64,000 nucleotides of DNA. Origin: Anaerolineales bacterium (lineage in GTDB: Bacteria; Chloroflexota; Anaerolineae; Aggregatilineales; UBA2796). The stretch lies in contig JABTTZ010000001.1 in NCBI GenBank assembly GCA_015075625.1, forward strand, positions 1 through 64,000, in the 5' to 3' direction. Positions within the stretch are counted from its first letter, which is position 1. Each line of letters opens with the position of its first letter. The position numbers and the translations under genes were made by a program. Shown here piece after piece: positions 4,351 through 46,112 of the stretch. The notes under the pieces were generated by a model. It was not told where the DNA came from, did not search any database, and worked only from the letters and a program-made list of their open reading frames with translations.

Positions 4351-5844
4351 TTACCAACCCTTCTCATCAAAAATGTTCTGCATGATGATTTGCATCCATT
4401 CCAACCGTGCATCGCCAGGATAGGTGCTATCGCTACCGGTGTAAGCATTAGACCCGTAAGTACCCCAAGATTGATTTCGAAAGCCGCTCCAGGTTCCAGG
4501 CACACTGAGTGGATCGAGGTAAGTAAACGGGATATTGCTTATAGTCCGGTACACCCAATTCAAGAACATATCTGCAGCCTCTTCTTCAAGGACAAGCACC
4601 AGAGGATCTGAGGCAAATACATCGGCTGGATGCTGCTGGAAATCCGTGAAGATATTGTCGGGACCGGCTCCCCAACCCCTATCACGCCTACCATATTGAC
4701 CTAAATCACTTCGTATGCCGATCACTCTAAAAGAGTCTGCATCTTCCACACTGGTGCAAGTTGTCGTAAAGCTTAAGTCAGGACTCCCATCAGGAAGTTC
4801 TGAAAGCGCATCAGCACGGAGTGAGTCTCGCAAGTAGGCAGGACAACTTCCACTCGCAAGCCCCTGAAAAGCAAGATTGAGCAAGCGGCAAGGTGATGTT
4901 GCCGAGGTCGGACTACAATTCGTTGAGGTCGTGCGATTATCGAAGACATGTCCCAGTTCATGCACCAAGAGATACTGCATGAACGCCAAGTTCGTTTGAC
5001 CGCTCGCTCCAGCCAATATCATCTCACTACCAGCGGTAATTGAGAGTGAATTACAGACAATCGTTCGAGGGATTGGTGATGGTGCAGTTGTTGCGCCAGT
5101 TCCTTGGAATGTAACGCAGCCGCCATCAGTGATGTTGTCGCTCGCATCATTCACATTATTTCCAAATGATACGCTCTTGGTTTCAGTCCCTGAAGGAACT
5201 GTATAAGCGACGGCAATTTCTTGCGAATTTGGCGTACCCACTGCCTTATACAGCACGATGTAAGGTAGGGTATCCCCAGTGATCATGATCTGCCGGAATA
5301 GCTCTGGCGTTATGCGGGAGGAATCTGATAAGCGGTCGAGGGCTGCTGCCGTCGTCACCACGCCTTTATAAATCTCGACGATTTCGGTTTCCGTCCAGAC
5401 GAACGTGCTTTCATTTCGCAACAACACGCCGTAATCCTGCTCAAGCTCAGTGAGCGCCGTTAAGGGATCAATAACTTGGGTTGTGAGTACATTACAAGGC
5501 GTGTCCTGCTGCTGTTGTGGTGTCTGTGTGACATTACCACCTCCTGCATAGAACCAGCGACCCACAGAAGCGGGATCGGTTGCGTTAGTGCGAATGCGCA
5601 CAAGGTTGGGATTTACGAACGATCTTAAATCAACCTCGATAATCGTTCCACTGGGGAGACTCCCTGTCGTTAGTTGCCGACCGAGCATCTCTAATGGCGT
5701 CGTGAAGTACGATGGATTCCGTCCCTCTGCGACTGTCACTTTGCATGTGGGTTGCTGCGCCTGCCCAAAGCCCAACCCATCGGCATTGCTCTGCCCCGGC
5801 AGCGCCAGCACCACGCGCGGATTCGACCCATCCACCTCCGCCAA
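4351..5844 (-). CDS. Zinc peptidase module 2 (HELGH zincin) with truncated propeller head
   Basis: The frame encodes up to 497 residues. The first 30 residues are the propeller junction sequence (AEVDGSNPRVVLALPGQSNA and on). An SH3-like segment follows (about 32-115, with CKVTVAEG and GRWFYAGGG). The catalytic domain has HELGH at residues 295-299 and EEEAADMFLNW about 130 residues later, which may hold the third ligand. Several Cys pairs fit an exported protein. The start is doubtful: the ATG present in J1 and J3 is ATC here, leaving TTG at 5844, with no ribosome-binding site and no signal peptide. The related catalytic domain forms the C-terminus of the 9888-13697 protein. I read this as a headless C-terminal module that may need recombination or readthrough to be exported. 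Confidence 0.75.
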   Translation of the reverse strand: MAEVDGSNPRVVLALPGQSNADGLGFGQAQQPTCKVTVAEGRNPSYFTTPLEMLGRQLTTGSLPSGTIIEVDLRSFVNPNLVRIRTNATDPASVGRWFYAGGGNVTQTPQQQQDTPCNVLTTQVIDPLTALTELEQDYGVLLRNESTFVWTETEIVEIYKGVVTTAAALDRLSDSSRITPELFRQIMITGDTLPYIVLYKAVGTPNSQEIAVAYTVPSGTETKSVSFGNNVNDASDNITDGGCVTFQGTGATTAPSPIPRTIVCNSLSITAGSEMILAGASGQTNLAFMQYLLVHELGHVFDNRTTSTNCSPTSATSPCRLLNLAFQGLASGSCPAYLRDSLRADALSELPDGSPDLSFTTTCTSVEDADSFRVIGIRSDLGQYGRRDRGWGAGPDNIFTDFQQHPADVFASDPLVLVLEEEAADMFLNWVYRTISNIPFTYLDPLSVPGTWSGFRNQSWGTYGSNAYTGSDSTYPGDARLEWMQIIMQNIFDEKGW

Positions 5845-41650: not shown

Positions 41651-42685
41651 TTAGGATACCAACCGCAGTGCCGCCCGCCCCTCTATGACGGATTCCCCGG
41701 AAATGACGCGATAACTGCGTACCCCAACGGCGAGGCGCTCACCGGCATGAAGGCTTAGCTGGGTTGCCGTCTCGCCCGTTAAGAGGGCATTCACCGTGAC
41801 GCCAGATTCCAAGGTCAGGCTGACGCGCTCGCATGCCCCGGCAAAGATGGTTTCGGTCACCATGCCGTAGCCAATGACCTCGCCTTCGACCTCGCCAACG
41901 TGCCGCGCCACGCTGATCGCCTCTGGGCGTGCCATGATCTCCGTCTTAGCTCCCTCCCATCCGGCGGGGATGAGGTTTGCCGTCCCTAAAAAGAAGGCGG
42001 TGTAACGGTGTTGGGGAGTCTGATAAAGGGCGGTTGGTGTCCCGACTTCTACAAGCCGACCGTTTTCAATGACCCCGATCTGATCGGCAAGTTCAAGCGC
42101 CTCGTCCTGATCATGGGTGACGAGGATGGCGGTGATCCCTAAGCGGCGTTGGATCGCCCGTACATCGCGCCGCAACTGGGTGCGGATGCGCACATCAAGC
42201 GCCCCGAACGGCTCATCCAACAGCAAGACCTCCGGTTCATAGGCAAGCGCCCGCGCTAAGGCAACGCGCTGCTGCTGACCGCCGGAAAGCTGATCGGGAT
42301 AGCGCTCACCATAGCCCGCCAACTGAATCAAACTGAGCAGTTCCCCCACCCGCGCCGCTTGCGCCGCTTTGGAGACGCGCCGCACATCCAGCCCAAAGGC
42401 GATGTTTTCGGCAACGGTCATGTGCCGGAAAAGGGAATAACCCTGAAAGACAACGCCGGTGTTCCGTTTTTGGGGAGGGAGACGGGTGACATCCTGCCCG
42501 TGCAGCCAGACGCGCCCTTTATCCAGCGGGGTGAGTCCAGCGATCATGCGTAGAATGGTACTTTTCCCGCTGCCGCTCTCGCCTAGCAATACGAAGAAAT
42601 CGCCGCGCTCAATGGTCAGGGTGACATCCTGAACGACGGGCGTCTTGCCAAATGATTTTTGGACATTTTCGAGATGGATAGACAT
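41651..42685 (-). CDS. cysA: Sulfate/thiosulfate ABC transporter ATPase
   Basis: The 344-residue ATPase has Walker A GESGSGKST, signature LSGGQQQR and Walker B LLLDEPFGALD, with the switch His in VTHDQDEALELADQ. A C-terminal TOBE-like domain (about 240-340) is typical of CysA, PotA and related importers. It is the last gene of the sbp-cysT-cysW-cysA group, starting 2 bases after the cysW stop. The sulfate call comes mainly from the operon and from the sbp-like binding protein. Energy from ATP drives import through the two permeases. Confidence 0.93.
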   Translation of the reverse strand: MSIHLENVQKSFGKTPVVQDVTLTIERGDFFVLLGESGSGKSTILRMIAGLTPLDKGRVWLHGQDVTRLPPQKRNTGVVFQGYSLFRHMTVAENIAFGLDVRRVSKAAQAARVGELLSLIQLAGYGERYPDQLSGGQQQRVALARALAYEPEVLLLDEPFGALDVRIRTQLRRDVRAIQRRLGITAILVTHDQDEALELADQIGVIENGRLVEVGTPTALYQTPQHRYTAFFLGTANLIPAGWEGAKTEIMARPEAISVARHVGEVEGEVIGYGMVTETIFAGACERVSLTLESGVTVNALLTGETATQLSLHAGERLAVGVRSYRVISGESVIEGRAALRLVS

Positions 42686-42687
42686 CG

Positions 42688-43521
42688 TTATTCGCCTCTC
42701 CTGAGGGCGACGCCGGTCTTACCGCGTCGCAATACATCCATAATCACCAGTGAAAGGATAGACAAGACGATGAGAACAAGGGCAATCCCATAGCCGCCCA
42801 CGTTGTTTCGATCATCCAGCGCCCGTTGAAGGTAGACTGTCGCTGTCTCGGTGGTGCGTTCAATCTGCCCACCTGCCACCGCCACTGCCCCGTAGTCGCC
42901 TATGGCGCGAATGAAGGTGAGCATGATTCCAAAGCCAAGCGCCCGTGAGATTTGAGGAAGGATCACCCGCCGAAAGGTGCGCCAACGGCTGGCGCCCATC
43001 GTGGCGGCGGCATCTTCCTGTTCCCGACGGAGCGAGGCAAGGATAGGCTGCACCTCGCGCACGACGAAAGGCAGGGTGACAAAGACGGTAGCAATGACCA
43101 CCGCTAGGGGGGAATAAACAAGGGCGACAGACTCCGTTTTGAACCACCCCAAGCGCCCAAAGAGGACGATCATCGTGTAGCCGAAAATGACGGGGGAAAA
43201 GATAAAGGGCGCATCGACAAGGGCATCAAAAAAGTGCTTGCCGCGGAACTCATGACGCACCAAGACCCAGGCGAGGGCAATACCAGCAATCGTGTTGATA
43301 ATCACGGCGGTGAAGGCAGCAATGAGGCTGAGACGAAAGGCAATTAGCACATCGGGGCGCGTCAGTTCGCGGATGAGCGCCTCGCCACCGCGACTGAACG
43401 CCCCACCGAGGACGGCAATAAAGGGGGCGGCAACCAACACCAGCCCGTACAGCAGGACGATCCCAACAAGGACTGCCCCAACGAGGTTTTGGGGACGCTT
43501 TGCCCGCTCAGTGGTGTTCAC
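42688..43521 (-). CDS. cysW: Sulfate ABC transporter permease CysW
   Basis: The GTG at 43521 is chosen because GGAGG lies 7 bases upstream; the longer frame to 43620 has no such site. The 277-residue product has six membrane segments. The EAA loop, VREVQPILASLRREQEDAAATMGASRW, is of the CysW type: key residues are the E-x-x-A-A-x-x-x-G core near residues 175-185. It overlaps the preceding permease gene by 14 bases, a sign of translational coupling. CysT and CysW form the transmembrane heterodimer. The N-terminal 20 residues are basic. Confidence 0.9.
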   Translation of the reverse strand: MNTTERAKRPQNLVGAVLVGIVLLYGLVLVAAPFIAVLGGAFSRGGEALIRELTRPDVLIAFRLSLIAAFTAVIINTIAGIALAWVLVRHEFRGKHFFDALVDAPFIFSPVIFGYTMIVLFGRLGWFKTESVALVYSPLAVVIATVFVTLPFVVREVQPILASLRREQEDAAATMGASRWRTFRRVILPQISRALGFGIMLTFIRAIGDYGAVAVAGGQIERTTETATVYLQRALDDRNNVGGYGIALVLIVLSILSLVIMDVLRRGKTGVALRRGE

Positions 43522-44371
43522 GGTGCGTCCTCCGAATGATGCGATCCGCCGCAAGGGTGAGGGCAAAGGCGAGTAACAACAGTAAGCAAGAAATGCTGCT
43601 TGCCGCCGCCATGTTGCCATTTTCTACTTGGGTATAGACGTAGACCGTTGCCGTTTGGGTGCGCATGGGGATGTTGCCGGAAATAATGACCGCCGAGCCG
43701 AATTCGCCCAATGCCCGCGCAAAACTCAGCAGCGCTCCGGTTAGCACAGCGGGAAGGATCGCGGGGAAAATGACCCGTCGGAACGTCCGCCAGGGGGATG
43801 CGCCGAGGGTGAGCGCCGCCTCTTGCTGGCTTGCCTCAAGGGACATGAGGACAGGTTGTACGGCGCGAACGACGAACGGATAGCCAATAAAGAGCAGGGC
43901 AAGGATAATCCCGGGCGAGGCAAAGATGATCTTGACGCCCAATTCCTTCTCAAAAAATTTGCCGATCACCGTTTGCGGACCGTAAAGCAAGATGAGCATG
44001 ACGCCGGTGACAAGAGCGGGGACGGAAAAGGGAATATCGATCAGGATATTGAGCAGCCCCTTGCCTGGGAAGTGATAGTGAACGAGGACGTAGGCGGTGA
44101 GCGTCCCCATGATTGCGTTGATCACCGCCATGACTGCCGCTGTCCAGATGGAAAGCCACATGGCGTTGATTGCCGCTGGACGACTGATGCTGAGCCAGAA
44201 GGCATCCCACCCCCCGCGCAAGCCCTGGACACTGACGACGATCACCGGAACAAGGGCGAACAGCATAAGGTAGCTGAGAGCGGCAGCCCGTAACCCCCAA
44301 ACACCCCAACGGGGGGTGAATGTGGGGCGGAGTGAAAGAGGGAAGGACGGTGTAGTCGTTGTCATTGACAT
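43508..44371 (-). CDS. cysT: Sulfate ABC transporter permease CysT
   Basis: The 287-residue product has six membrane segments and the EAA loop QQEAALTLGASPWRTFRRVI, as in CysT/CysU. FSVPALVTGVMLILLYGP and SFARALGEFGSAVIISGN are typical CysT stretches. The gene follows sbp on the same strand after 358 bases filled with palindromes, so expression may drop between them. It overlaps cysW by 14 bases. Confidence 0.92.
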   Translation of the reverse strand: MSMTTTTPSFPLSLRPTFTPRWGVWGLRAAALSYLMLFALVPVIVVSVQGLRGGWDAFWLSISRPAAINAMWLSIWTAAVMAVINAIMGTLTAYVLVHYHFPGKGLLNILIDIPFSVPALVTGVMLILLYGPQTVIGKFFEKELGVKIIFASPGIILALLFIGYPFVVRAVQPVLMSLEASQQEAALTLGASPWRTFRRVIFPAILPAVLTGALLSFARALGEFGSAVIISGNIPMRTQTATVYVYTQVENGNMAAASSISCLLLLLAFALTLAADRIIRRTHREHH

Positions 44372-44729: not shown

Positions 44730-45785
44730 CTAGTTCCCCGTCTTTTCAGCGATCAGCTTGGTCACTGCCCCTTCATCGCCAAAGTAGATGTTCAGCGCCT
44801 CTGCCCACCCGCCGAATTCCTCAATGGTGAACACATCCTCCACTGGGGCGAATAACGCCTCAAATTCTTCCTTCGTCAGGGCATCTTCGACCACCGGACG
44901 GAAGTAGTATTTGGCGAAAATGCGCTGCGCTTCGGGCGTGTAGAGGAATTTCACAAAGGCTTCTGCCTCTTTGCGAACGCTGTGCTTATCGGCATAGCCA
45001 TCGACAACGGCAATCGGACTCTGAAGTAAGATGGTGGAAGTTGGGTAAACAGCCTCAACCTCTGCCCCCGCTGCGATCCCGCTGAGCAGTTCGCTTTCCT
45101 GGGTAATCACTACATCACCGATGCCGTTTTCAAAGTTCAGGACGTTTTCGCGCCCATCTTTTGCCAGTGTCACGACGTTCTTGAGCAGGTCGCCATAGAA
45201 CAGCAAGCCCCCTTCGGCGGTCTTTTCATAGCCTGAGACAAAGCCGCGCTTTGCCGCACCGATAGCGCCCAAGGCATTCCATCGCGCTCCACCGCTGGTT
45301 ACCGGGTTGGGGCTGAGCGATTCGATCCCCGGTTTGACAACATCTGCCCAATCCTTGATGTCTTTCGGATTATCGGCACGGACGCCTAAGACAACGAGGG
45401 AGGTCGTCACAATCCCCTTATATTCATTGTCCTGCCAATCGTAGGTGATCAGCCCCGCCTTGATGAGCGTGTTGATCTCGGTTTCTTGCTGGAGAGCGAC
45501 CACATCCGCTTCCAAGCCACCCGCGACAGCACGTGTGAGCGCACCAGAGGCTTGATAGGTTTCTTCAAAGGAGACACGGGTACCGGTCTCCTTTTCGTAG
45601 CGTTCTTGGAAAAGGGCGATGATCTCGCCATAGGCTGAGCCAGCGACGGAAAACGCGCCAAAGGTCAGTGTCACATTGCCTTCGGCAGAATGTGCCGGAT
45701 TCACATCCCCAAAGATGCCAAAAATCCCCAAGGCAAAGGTGGCAATGATCAGAAAGGGAAGGTATTTACGGAGAACCGATAGCAT
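44730..45785 (-). CDS. sbp: Sulfate-binding periplasmic-type protein
   Basis: The 351-residue product has a signal peptide or N-terminal anchor (FLIIATFALGIFGIFG, then PAHSAEG). The body is a sulfate/thiosulfate-binding protein: LTFGAFSVAGSAYGEIIALF, VVALQQETEINTLIKAGLI, NPKDIKDWADVVKPGI and NPVTSGGARWNALGAI are family-typical. VITQESE and VDGYADKHSVRKEAEAF follow. No lipobox Cys is present. GGAG lies 5 bases before the ATG. It is the first structural gene of the sulfate transporter, and its leader contains a Cys-rich open frame and a terminator (45861-46026). Confidence 0.93.
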   Translation of the reverse strand: MLSVLRKYLPFLIIATFALGIFGIFGDVNPAHSAEGNVTLTFGAFSVAGSAYGEIIALFQERYEKETGTRVSFEETYQASGALTRAVAGGLEADVVALQQETEINTLIKAGLITYDWQDNEYKGIVTTSLVVLGVRADNPKDIKDWADVVKPGIESLSPNPVTSGGARWNALGAIGAAKRGFVSGYEKTAEGGLLFYGDLLKNVVTLAKDGRENVLNFENGIGDVVITQESELLSGIAAGAEVEAVYPTSTILLQSPIAVVDGYADKHSVRKEAEAFVKFLYTPEAQRIFAKYYFRPVVEDALTKEEFEALFAPVEDVFTIEEFGGWAEALNIYFGDEGAVTKLIAEKTGN

Positions 45786-45860: not shown

Positions 45861-45891
45861 AGAAAAAGCCCCGAATACGTCGTTCAGGGCT
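45861..45891 (-). terminator. Intrinsic terminator in the sbp leader (attenuator)
   Basis: On the minus strand AGCCCTGAA pairs with TTCGGGGCT (9 bp, one G-U) around CGACGTA and is followed by TTTTTC. It lies 31 bases after the stop of the Cys-rich leader frame and 75 bases before the sbp ATG. No full-length gene ends just upstream, so it can only act on the sbp leader transcript. Confidence 0.8.
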
Positions 45892-45921
45892 GATGATTCA
45901 GGGTCATTTTGACGCTGGAGA

Positions 45922-46026
45922 TCAGCAACACAGACACGCACACAGACCACACCCACAACAAGCGGCGCTACAACAGCCACAAGACGGCTGACAGCGACAA
46001 AGTGTGTGAACTGGAACGCGGTGCAT
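45922..46026 (-). CDS. Cysteine-rich leader peptide, 34 codons with 12 Cys
   Basis: The frame starts with ATG at 46026 and ends at TGA 45924-45922. Cys codons are at positions 10, 12, 16, 18, 19, 23, 24, 26, 29, 31, 33 and 34; eleven are TGT and one TGC. GGAG lies 9 bases before the ATG, and an earlier in-frame ATG at 46035 is directly against it and so less likely. The terminator at 45891-45861 and then sbp follow on the same strand. This is the layout of transcription attenuation by a leader peptide, where ribosomes slow on Cys codons when charged Cys-tRNA is scarce. Cys-rich leader frames upstream of sulfur genes are known in mycobacteria; the role here is inferred from position and composition. 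Confidence 0.8.
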   Translation of the reverse strand: MHRVPVHTLCRCQPSCGCCSAACCGCGLCACLCC

Positions 46027-46083
46027 ACAGAACATCTCCGATTTATTTGGATAGTTTCTGTGCCTTTCAACGACACAAGGACA

Positions 46084-46112
46084 AGGATAGCACAGTTTTT
46101 TTCAAATTACAA
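46084..46112 (-). promoter_or_regulatory. Candidate promoter of the sbp leader
   Basis: TTGTAA (46112-46107), 17 bases and TATCCT (46089-46084) with an extended -10 TGC. Transcription would start near 46077, about 50 bases before the Cys-rich leader frame. The match is moderate. Confidence 0.4.

Follow-up and report, generated by a model that had tools for sequence, protein, structure and literature searches.

The sulfate transporter operon sbp-cysT-cysW-cysA described here is preceded by a cysteine-rich leader ORF and an intrinsic terminator, and we consider the best explanation, with a probability of roughly 0.85 and in the absence of experimental or expression data, to be that the sbp leader constitutes a ribosome-mediated, cysteine-responsive transcription attenuator. 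The interpretation as a cysteine attenuator, advanced in a preliminary description of this DNA, is supported by our analyses. Further, this genome has the same device before cysH(-sat) and sir, and its relatives have it before cysH, sir and cysK; a set of cysteine-sensing attenuators therefore appears to govern sulfate uptake, sulfate reduction and the synthesis of cysteine in the order.

Within the window (the whole stretch of DNA that was analysed, 64,000 nt), the leader and the terminator are directly observed (Table 1). Two features expected of an attenuator are met, namely a leader ORF enriched in codons for the amino acid of the pathway (12 Cys among 34 codons, with a GGAG and orthologous leaders), and an intrinsic terminator with its U tract between the leader and the first gene. 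The frame, its GGAG and the terminator had been correctly reported in the preliminary description, the distance from the leader stop codon to the terminator start being 30 nt. The leader encodes MHRVPVHTLCRCQPSCGCCSAACCGCGLCACLCC (ATG at 46026, TGA at 45924-45922) and uses both TGT and TGC codons; the hairpin reads AGCCCTGAA-cgacgta-TTCGGGGCT, followed by TTTTTCTT. The promoter-like element upstream is weak, matching the consensus at 8 of 12 positions where the scan required 9, and would place the RNA start near 46077. Genes were assigned with NCBIfam, the first base of sbp being 45785, and the gene order previously proposed for the operon was recovered, with cysW falling just below and cysA below the family cut-off.

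Table 1. Features of the sbp attenuator region and of the downstream sulfate transporter genes
Feature	Coordinates	Strand	Basis
cysA-type ATPase	41651..42685	-	TIGR00968, E 1.9e-94, below curated cut-off; operon position
cysW-type permease	42688..43620	-	TIGR02140, E 1.6e-65; TIGR00969, 239.9 bits vs cut-off 240
cysT-type permease	43508..44371	-	TIGR02139, above cut-off
sbp, sulfate ABC transporter substrate-binding protein	44730..45785	-	TIGR00971, E 1.6e-55, above cut-off
Intrinsic terminator hairpin, 9 bp, then U tract	45867..45891	-	terminator scan
Predicted antiterminator 3' strand (terminator left arm, loop, part of right arm)	45870..45894	-	folding
Predicted antiterminator 5' strand (last Cys codons to stop codon)	45924..45946	-	folding
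Cys-rich leader ORF, 34 codons, 12 Cys	45922..46026	-	sequence; orthologous Cys-rich leaders
GGAG Shine-Dalgarno of leader, 9 nt 5' of ATG	46036..46039	-	sequence
Promoter-like element TTGTAA, 17 nt, TGC-TATCCT (extended -10)	46084..46112	-	sequence; weak

The cysteine content of the leader is exceptional, as 12 or more in-frame Cys codons were obtained in only 1 of 5000 dinucleotide shuffles, whose mean was about 5-6. With 7 Cys in 15 codons, it is the sole short frame of the window at that density, and no other short frame there combines 5 or more Cys in 15 codons with a terminator behind it. No family of NCBIfam or Pfam was matched by the leader, and Rfam models gave no riboswitch or T-box match in the window or in six further loci. 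Elsewhere in the window, two near-identical Cys-rich frames (2672-2740 and 5450-5551) end in GVSCCCCGVCVTLPPPA and apparently belong to a repeated stretch; no terminator was found after either of them.

The question of an attenuator was decided by the comparison of orthologs. Orthologs of sbp were gathered from relatives, the class and the order, and 28 of the order's 154 genomes have one. Upstream of 14 of these 28 genes, and of none of the 18 outside the order, lies a leader reaching 5 or more Cys in 15 codons; with at least 4 Cys, the count within the order rose to 17/28. As controls, opposite-strand tiles reached the stricter density in 4 of 614 cases and same-strand tiles in 10 of 332, some of the latter containing sbp leaders. 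A lack of cysteine enrichment in orthologous leaders, which would have refuted the attenuator as originally proposed, was therefore not what we observed, even though about half of the sbp orthologs of the order do not pass the strict cut. The leader peptides diverge strongly (e.g., MAPKTRCCTVCCDCLNCRCSSAW, MLRIARDCLCSTLAYGQCCCR, MHLYSVPRSIVPLYRARELVGCRSQQCCCCCR and MSVCESPSCCCSDNCRCNADIVDPESI), and what they have in common are clustered Cys codons, with both TGT and TGC in use. Many of them lack a terminator, including the MHLYSV group, L011, L013 and L014. In these terminator-less sbp loci, folding did not clearly show the Shine-Dalgarno of sbp becoming exposed when the ribosome stalls; their output step may be Rho-dependent termination or direct coupling.

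Several arrangements were noted among these orthologous loci. In L003, L005, L006, L013 and L014 the Cys leader separates sbp from sat or cysH, within a longer sulfur cluster and without a terminator. In genus g12, another Cys-rich frame (L007, 1350-1493, and the equivalents in L008-L010) comes after the leader and terminator; this second frame, MRSYEMCQPCNCMC...CCCDGC..., has its own Shine-Dalgarno, and its final codons overlap the start codon of sbp. Six leaders of family f2 (L046, L049, L050, L051, L053 and L056) share the conserved start ATG CAT CTC TAC TC(T/C), i.e., MHLYS; from the sequences, its preservation down to third codon positions suggests a possible constraint on the RNA or the start region. 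The leader described here likewise begins with MH.

Beyond sbp, the genes cysH, sir, sat and cysK were searched in 61 genomes, and a Cys leader with an intrinsic terminator was found before cysH, sir and cysK; no such leader-terminator pair of its own was found for sat in these genomes, and in the genome studied here sat lies behind cysH. This genome harbors three units, at sbp, cysH (L075) and sir (L096). The leader of its cysH unit reads MLRLSTCCPCAMCIPTHPPGGW, with GCCCCGGACGCCGCCGGGGC-TTTTTTTT behind it; that of the sir unit reads MNTLYPSPKMCCWQPFAPCAACMCDAPYTIPGRSDAQ, with AGAGCCGACCCGCAAGGTCGGCTTT-TTTG behind it. We then defined a unit as a Cys leader with a terminator 10-60 nt after its stop codon and scanned 1.43 Mb on both strands; these sequences were loci chosen around sulfur genes and not an unbiased sample, the background being provided by the opposite strand and the gene bodies. 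The scan yielded 48 distinct units, 7 before sbp, 19 before cysH, 13 before sir, 5 before cysK and 4 elsewhere. Both recurrence and specificity are thus directly observed, as 44 of the 48 lie before one of these four genes, in 23 genomes of the order, with 16-48 nt between leader and terminator. Several relatives carry two units in tandem (L070, L078, L081, L090, L100-L104, L150 and L151). Outside the order, no leader-terminator unit was present in 30 cysH loci taken from other parts of the phylum. A poly-Cys pattern search of the genome itself was discarded as too unspecific (225 matches vs 130 for the reversed control).

Two further observations arose from these loci. A Cys-rich frame, MKRITKNLLYAFSFPTPTSCLCCCPGRCMCFWTLHHKPDRRE, with a strong terminator was found in L185 (7467-7660; Blastocatellia, Acidobacteriota), located 3' of sulfate transporter genes and 5' of a small ORF and a gene resembling TonB receptors, and is possibly a Cys attenuator in another phylum. 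The records L165 (JAHHHY010000011.1), titled 'Pleurocapsa minor', and L151 (JAPUDW010000308.1), titled 'Bacteroidetes bacterium', come from genomes placed in this Chloroflexota order, and these public records are probably mislabelled or mixed.

The stall-dependent switch was computed by ribosome-position folding, in which the first unpaired base was set 13 nt past the A-site codon and the RNA 5' of the ribosome was excluded. At the sbp locus, the model predicts a helix (45946-45924 with 45894-45870) of -23.3 kcal/mol competing with -21.4 kcal/mol when the terminator is forced, a gap of 1.9 kcal/mol. The computed terminator probability (Pterm) stayed at 0.02-0.04 for a ribosome on any of Cys 1-6, rose to 0.86 on Cys 7 and lay at 0.93-0.96 for positions between Cys 8 and the stop codon; it was 0.93 without a ribosome on the leader. 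If the leader could not be translated for want of its start codon or Shine-Dalgarno, termination would be constitutive according to most of the folding models (Pterm 0.65-0.95). The prediction is model-dependent, as Pterm at Cys 1-6 was 0.59-0.88 vs 0.95 at the stop when pairing across the ribosome was allowed from a start at 46077, and the switch was equalled by 8 of 100 shuffles; a ribosome-dependent antiterminator is therefore predicted here only marginally when this locus is taken alone, and becomes significant over the set of units. The preliminary description had proposed the pairing of GCTGAT (45926-45921) with ATCAGC (45894-45889), whose positions are correct and which overlaps the terminator stem by 3 nt; nevertheless, as the main antiterminator this 6-bp helix was not sustained, being a minor register next to a longer predicted helix in a different one, and as the sole antiterminator it was rejected, with a mean P of about 0.28, since the stalled MFE structures use another register. 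A pairing of the 5'-UTR with the terminator loop (46077-46063 with 45888-45876) was also rejected, because 146 of 1000 shuffles were as good. For covariation at this leader there is no close relative, the nearest sbp being 56% identical.

Across units, the model returned a switch (stalled Pterm <0.3 and >0.7 at the stop) in 13 of 26, and the mean minimum Pterm was 0.48 vs 0.86 in shuffles; most of the 13 were equalled by at most 2 of 100 shuffles. The unit at cysH in this genome was equalled by 13 of 100, and the one at sir, together with about half of all units, showed no equilibrium switch. The folded units are not all independent, as some come from closely related species. Sequestration of the left arm before the right arm is made was supported over 24 units (Fisher p 1.8e-5 using the maximum over Cys positions, and 1.2e-6 using the mean). 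The second unit of L150 is an especially clear case, in which TGTAGTCCG is predicted to pair with CGGACTACA via the terminator left arm and loop, and in the first terminator stem L150 and L151 differ by a compensatory C-G to A-U change. The stall-dependent switch originally suggested is predicted beyond shuffles in about a dozen units, but remains marginal at the sbp locus on its own.

In the mechanism we propose, the Cys-rich leader would be translated by a ribosome following RNA polymerase. With enough Cys-tRNA, the ribosome would advance to the final codons or the stop codon, covering the 5' strand of the antiterminator, so that the terminator could form and transcription would end before sbp. 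If Cys-tRNA were too low, the ribosome would stall on early Cys codons, so that 45946-45924 could pair with 45894-45870; the antiterminator formed in this way would block the terminator, and sbp-cysTWA would be transcribed. Because a Cys leader with a terminator recurs before the sulfur genes of the order, cysteine shortage is probably sensed via the stalled ribosome; charged tRNA-Cys as the signal, like the regulatory response as such, is inferred.

Other explanations have to be weighed against this one. The leader might sense cysteine while its output on sbp is translational or Rho-dependent, as has been suggested for mycobacteria, the terminator being incidental; several relatives do carry Cys leaders before sbp without a terminator, and mycobacterial Cys leaders work without intrinsic terminators (PMC1262725; Canestrari 2020, as cited in PMC13236596). 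We regard this as unlikely, since the leader studied here has a terminator, 44 units of the order pair leader and terminator, and no switch in Shine-Dalgarno accessibility appeared in the terminator-less loci. Stalling on the peptide in response to a metal or redox signal, instead of a shortage of Cys-tRNA, would be in line with the binding of metals by Cys and with the copper-responsive upstream ORFs of other bacteria (PMC9426467); it is very unlikely, given that the peptides are unconserved apart from their Cys codons and that the targets (sulfate uptake, sulfate reduction and cysteine synthase) are exactly the cysteine pathway.

We find both of the remaining explanations hardly credible. 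A functional small Cys-rich, possibly metal-binding, protein encoded before the operon by chance would account for 12 Cys in 34 residues, but not for the absence of a family match, the lack of conservation in spacing and sequence, the recurrence only before sulfur genes, or the tandem leader-terminator copies. Likewise, GT-rich DNA could yield Cys codons ahead of the ordinary terminator of an upstream transcript, and the leader is indeed GT-rich, with shuffles of it already averaging several in-frame Cys; against this stand the rarity of 12 Cys among those shuffles and the recurrence across the order, and, judging from the orthologous sequences, a chance origin may be taken as already refuted.

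If confirmed, a pathway-wide set of terminator-type Cys attenuators in this uncultured Chloroflexota order would show that ribosome stalling is able to take on the role that transcription factors such as CysB or CymR have elsewhere. Tandem units would offer a testbed for whether serial attenuators multiply dynamic range, dozens of unannotated short genes would gain a function, and a simple signature would be at hand for finding such regulons in genomes. That the cysteine attenuators of this Chloroflexota order evolved separately from the actinobacterial ones, that tandem units act as serial checks, and that the second frame of genus g12 is an extra gate, is a proposal for which we see even odds.

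Ribosome-mediated transcription attenuation of the trp, his and ilv type is a textbook mechanism. The units described here resemble it in their leader ORF rich in end-product codons, the intrinsic terminator shortly after it, the predicted alternative antiterminator and the biosynthetic or uptake operon downstream; in contrast, the units of the order are cysteine-specific, act on several unlinked sulfur operons and are often tandem, and the antiterminator of the sbp locus is weakly predicted. Cys leaders without terminators have been predicted in Actinobacteria (Seliverstov 2005, PMC1262725), polycysteine short ORFs were described in mycobacteria (Shell 2015, PMC4633059), and cysteine attenuation without intrinsic terminators was reported for mycobacteria (Canestrari 2020, as cited in PMC13236596). 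The shared traits are a short poly-Cys ORF ahead of cys and sulfur genes and the idea of a ribosome-directed regulon, whereas the mycobacterial ORFs are leaderless, lack an intrinsic terminator and have a translational or Rho-dependent output. Neither trait of that type is seen here: the leader has a GGAG, a promoter-like element some 50 nt upstream, though weak, would put the RNA start ahead of the ORF, and a terminator is present. As the mycobacterial precedent invoked previously is translational and terminator-free, our element is closer to a trp-type attenuator. NCBIfam contained no match for Cys leaders, and nothing on Chloroflexota Cys attenuators was found in the open-access literature. 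The short Cys ORF uORFC-8-2 before cysS in Rhodobacterales, for which attenuation by Cys-tRNA stalling was predicted (PMC8632094), combines tandem Cys codons with two stems and a U-run terminator, and is alike in its short Cys ORF and terminator; it concerns only cysS, with two Cys codons, in alpha-proteobacteria, whereas the leader studied here precedes sbp and has 12, and the units of the order cover sulfate assimilation in Chloroflexota, with 4-12 Cys and tandem copies. In comparison with these systems, the Chloroflexota lineage, the pathway-wide deployment and the tandem arrays appear to be new.
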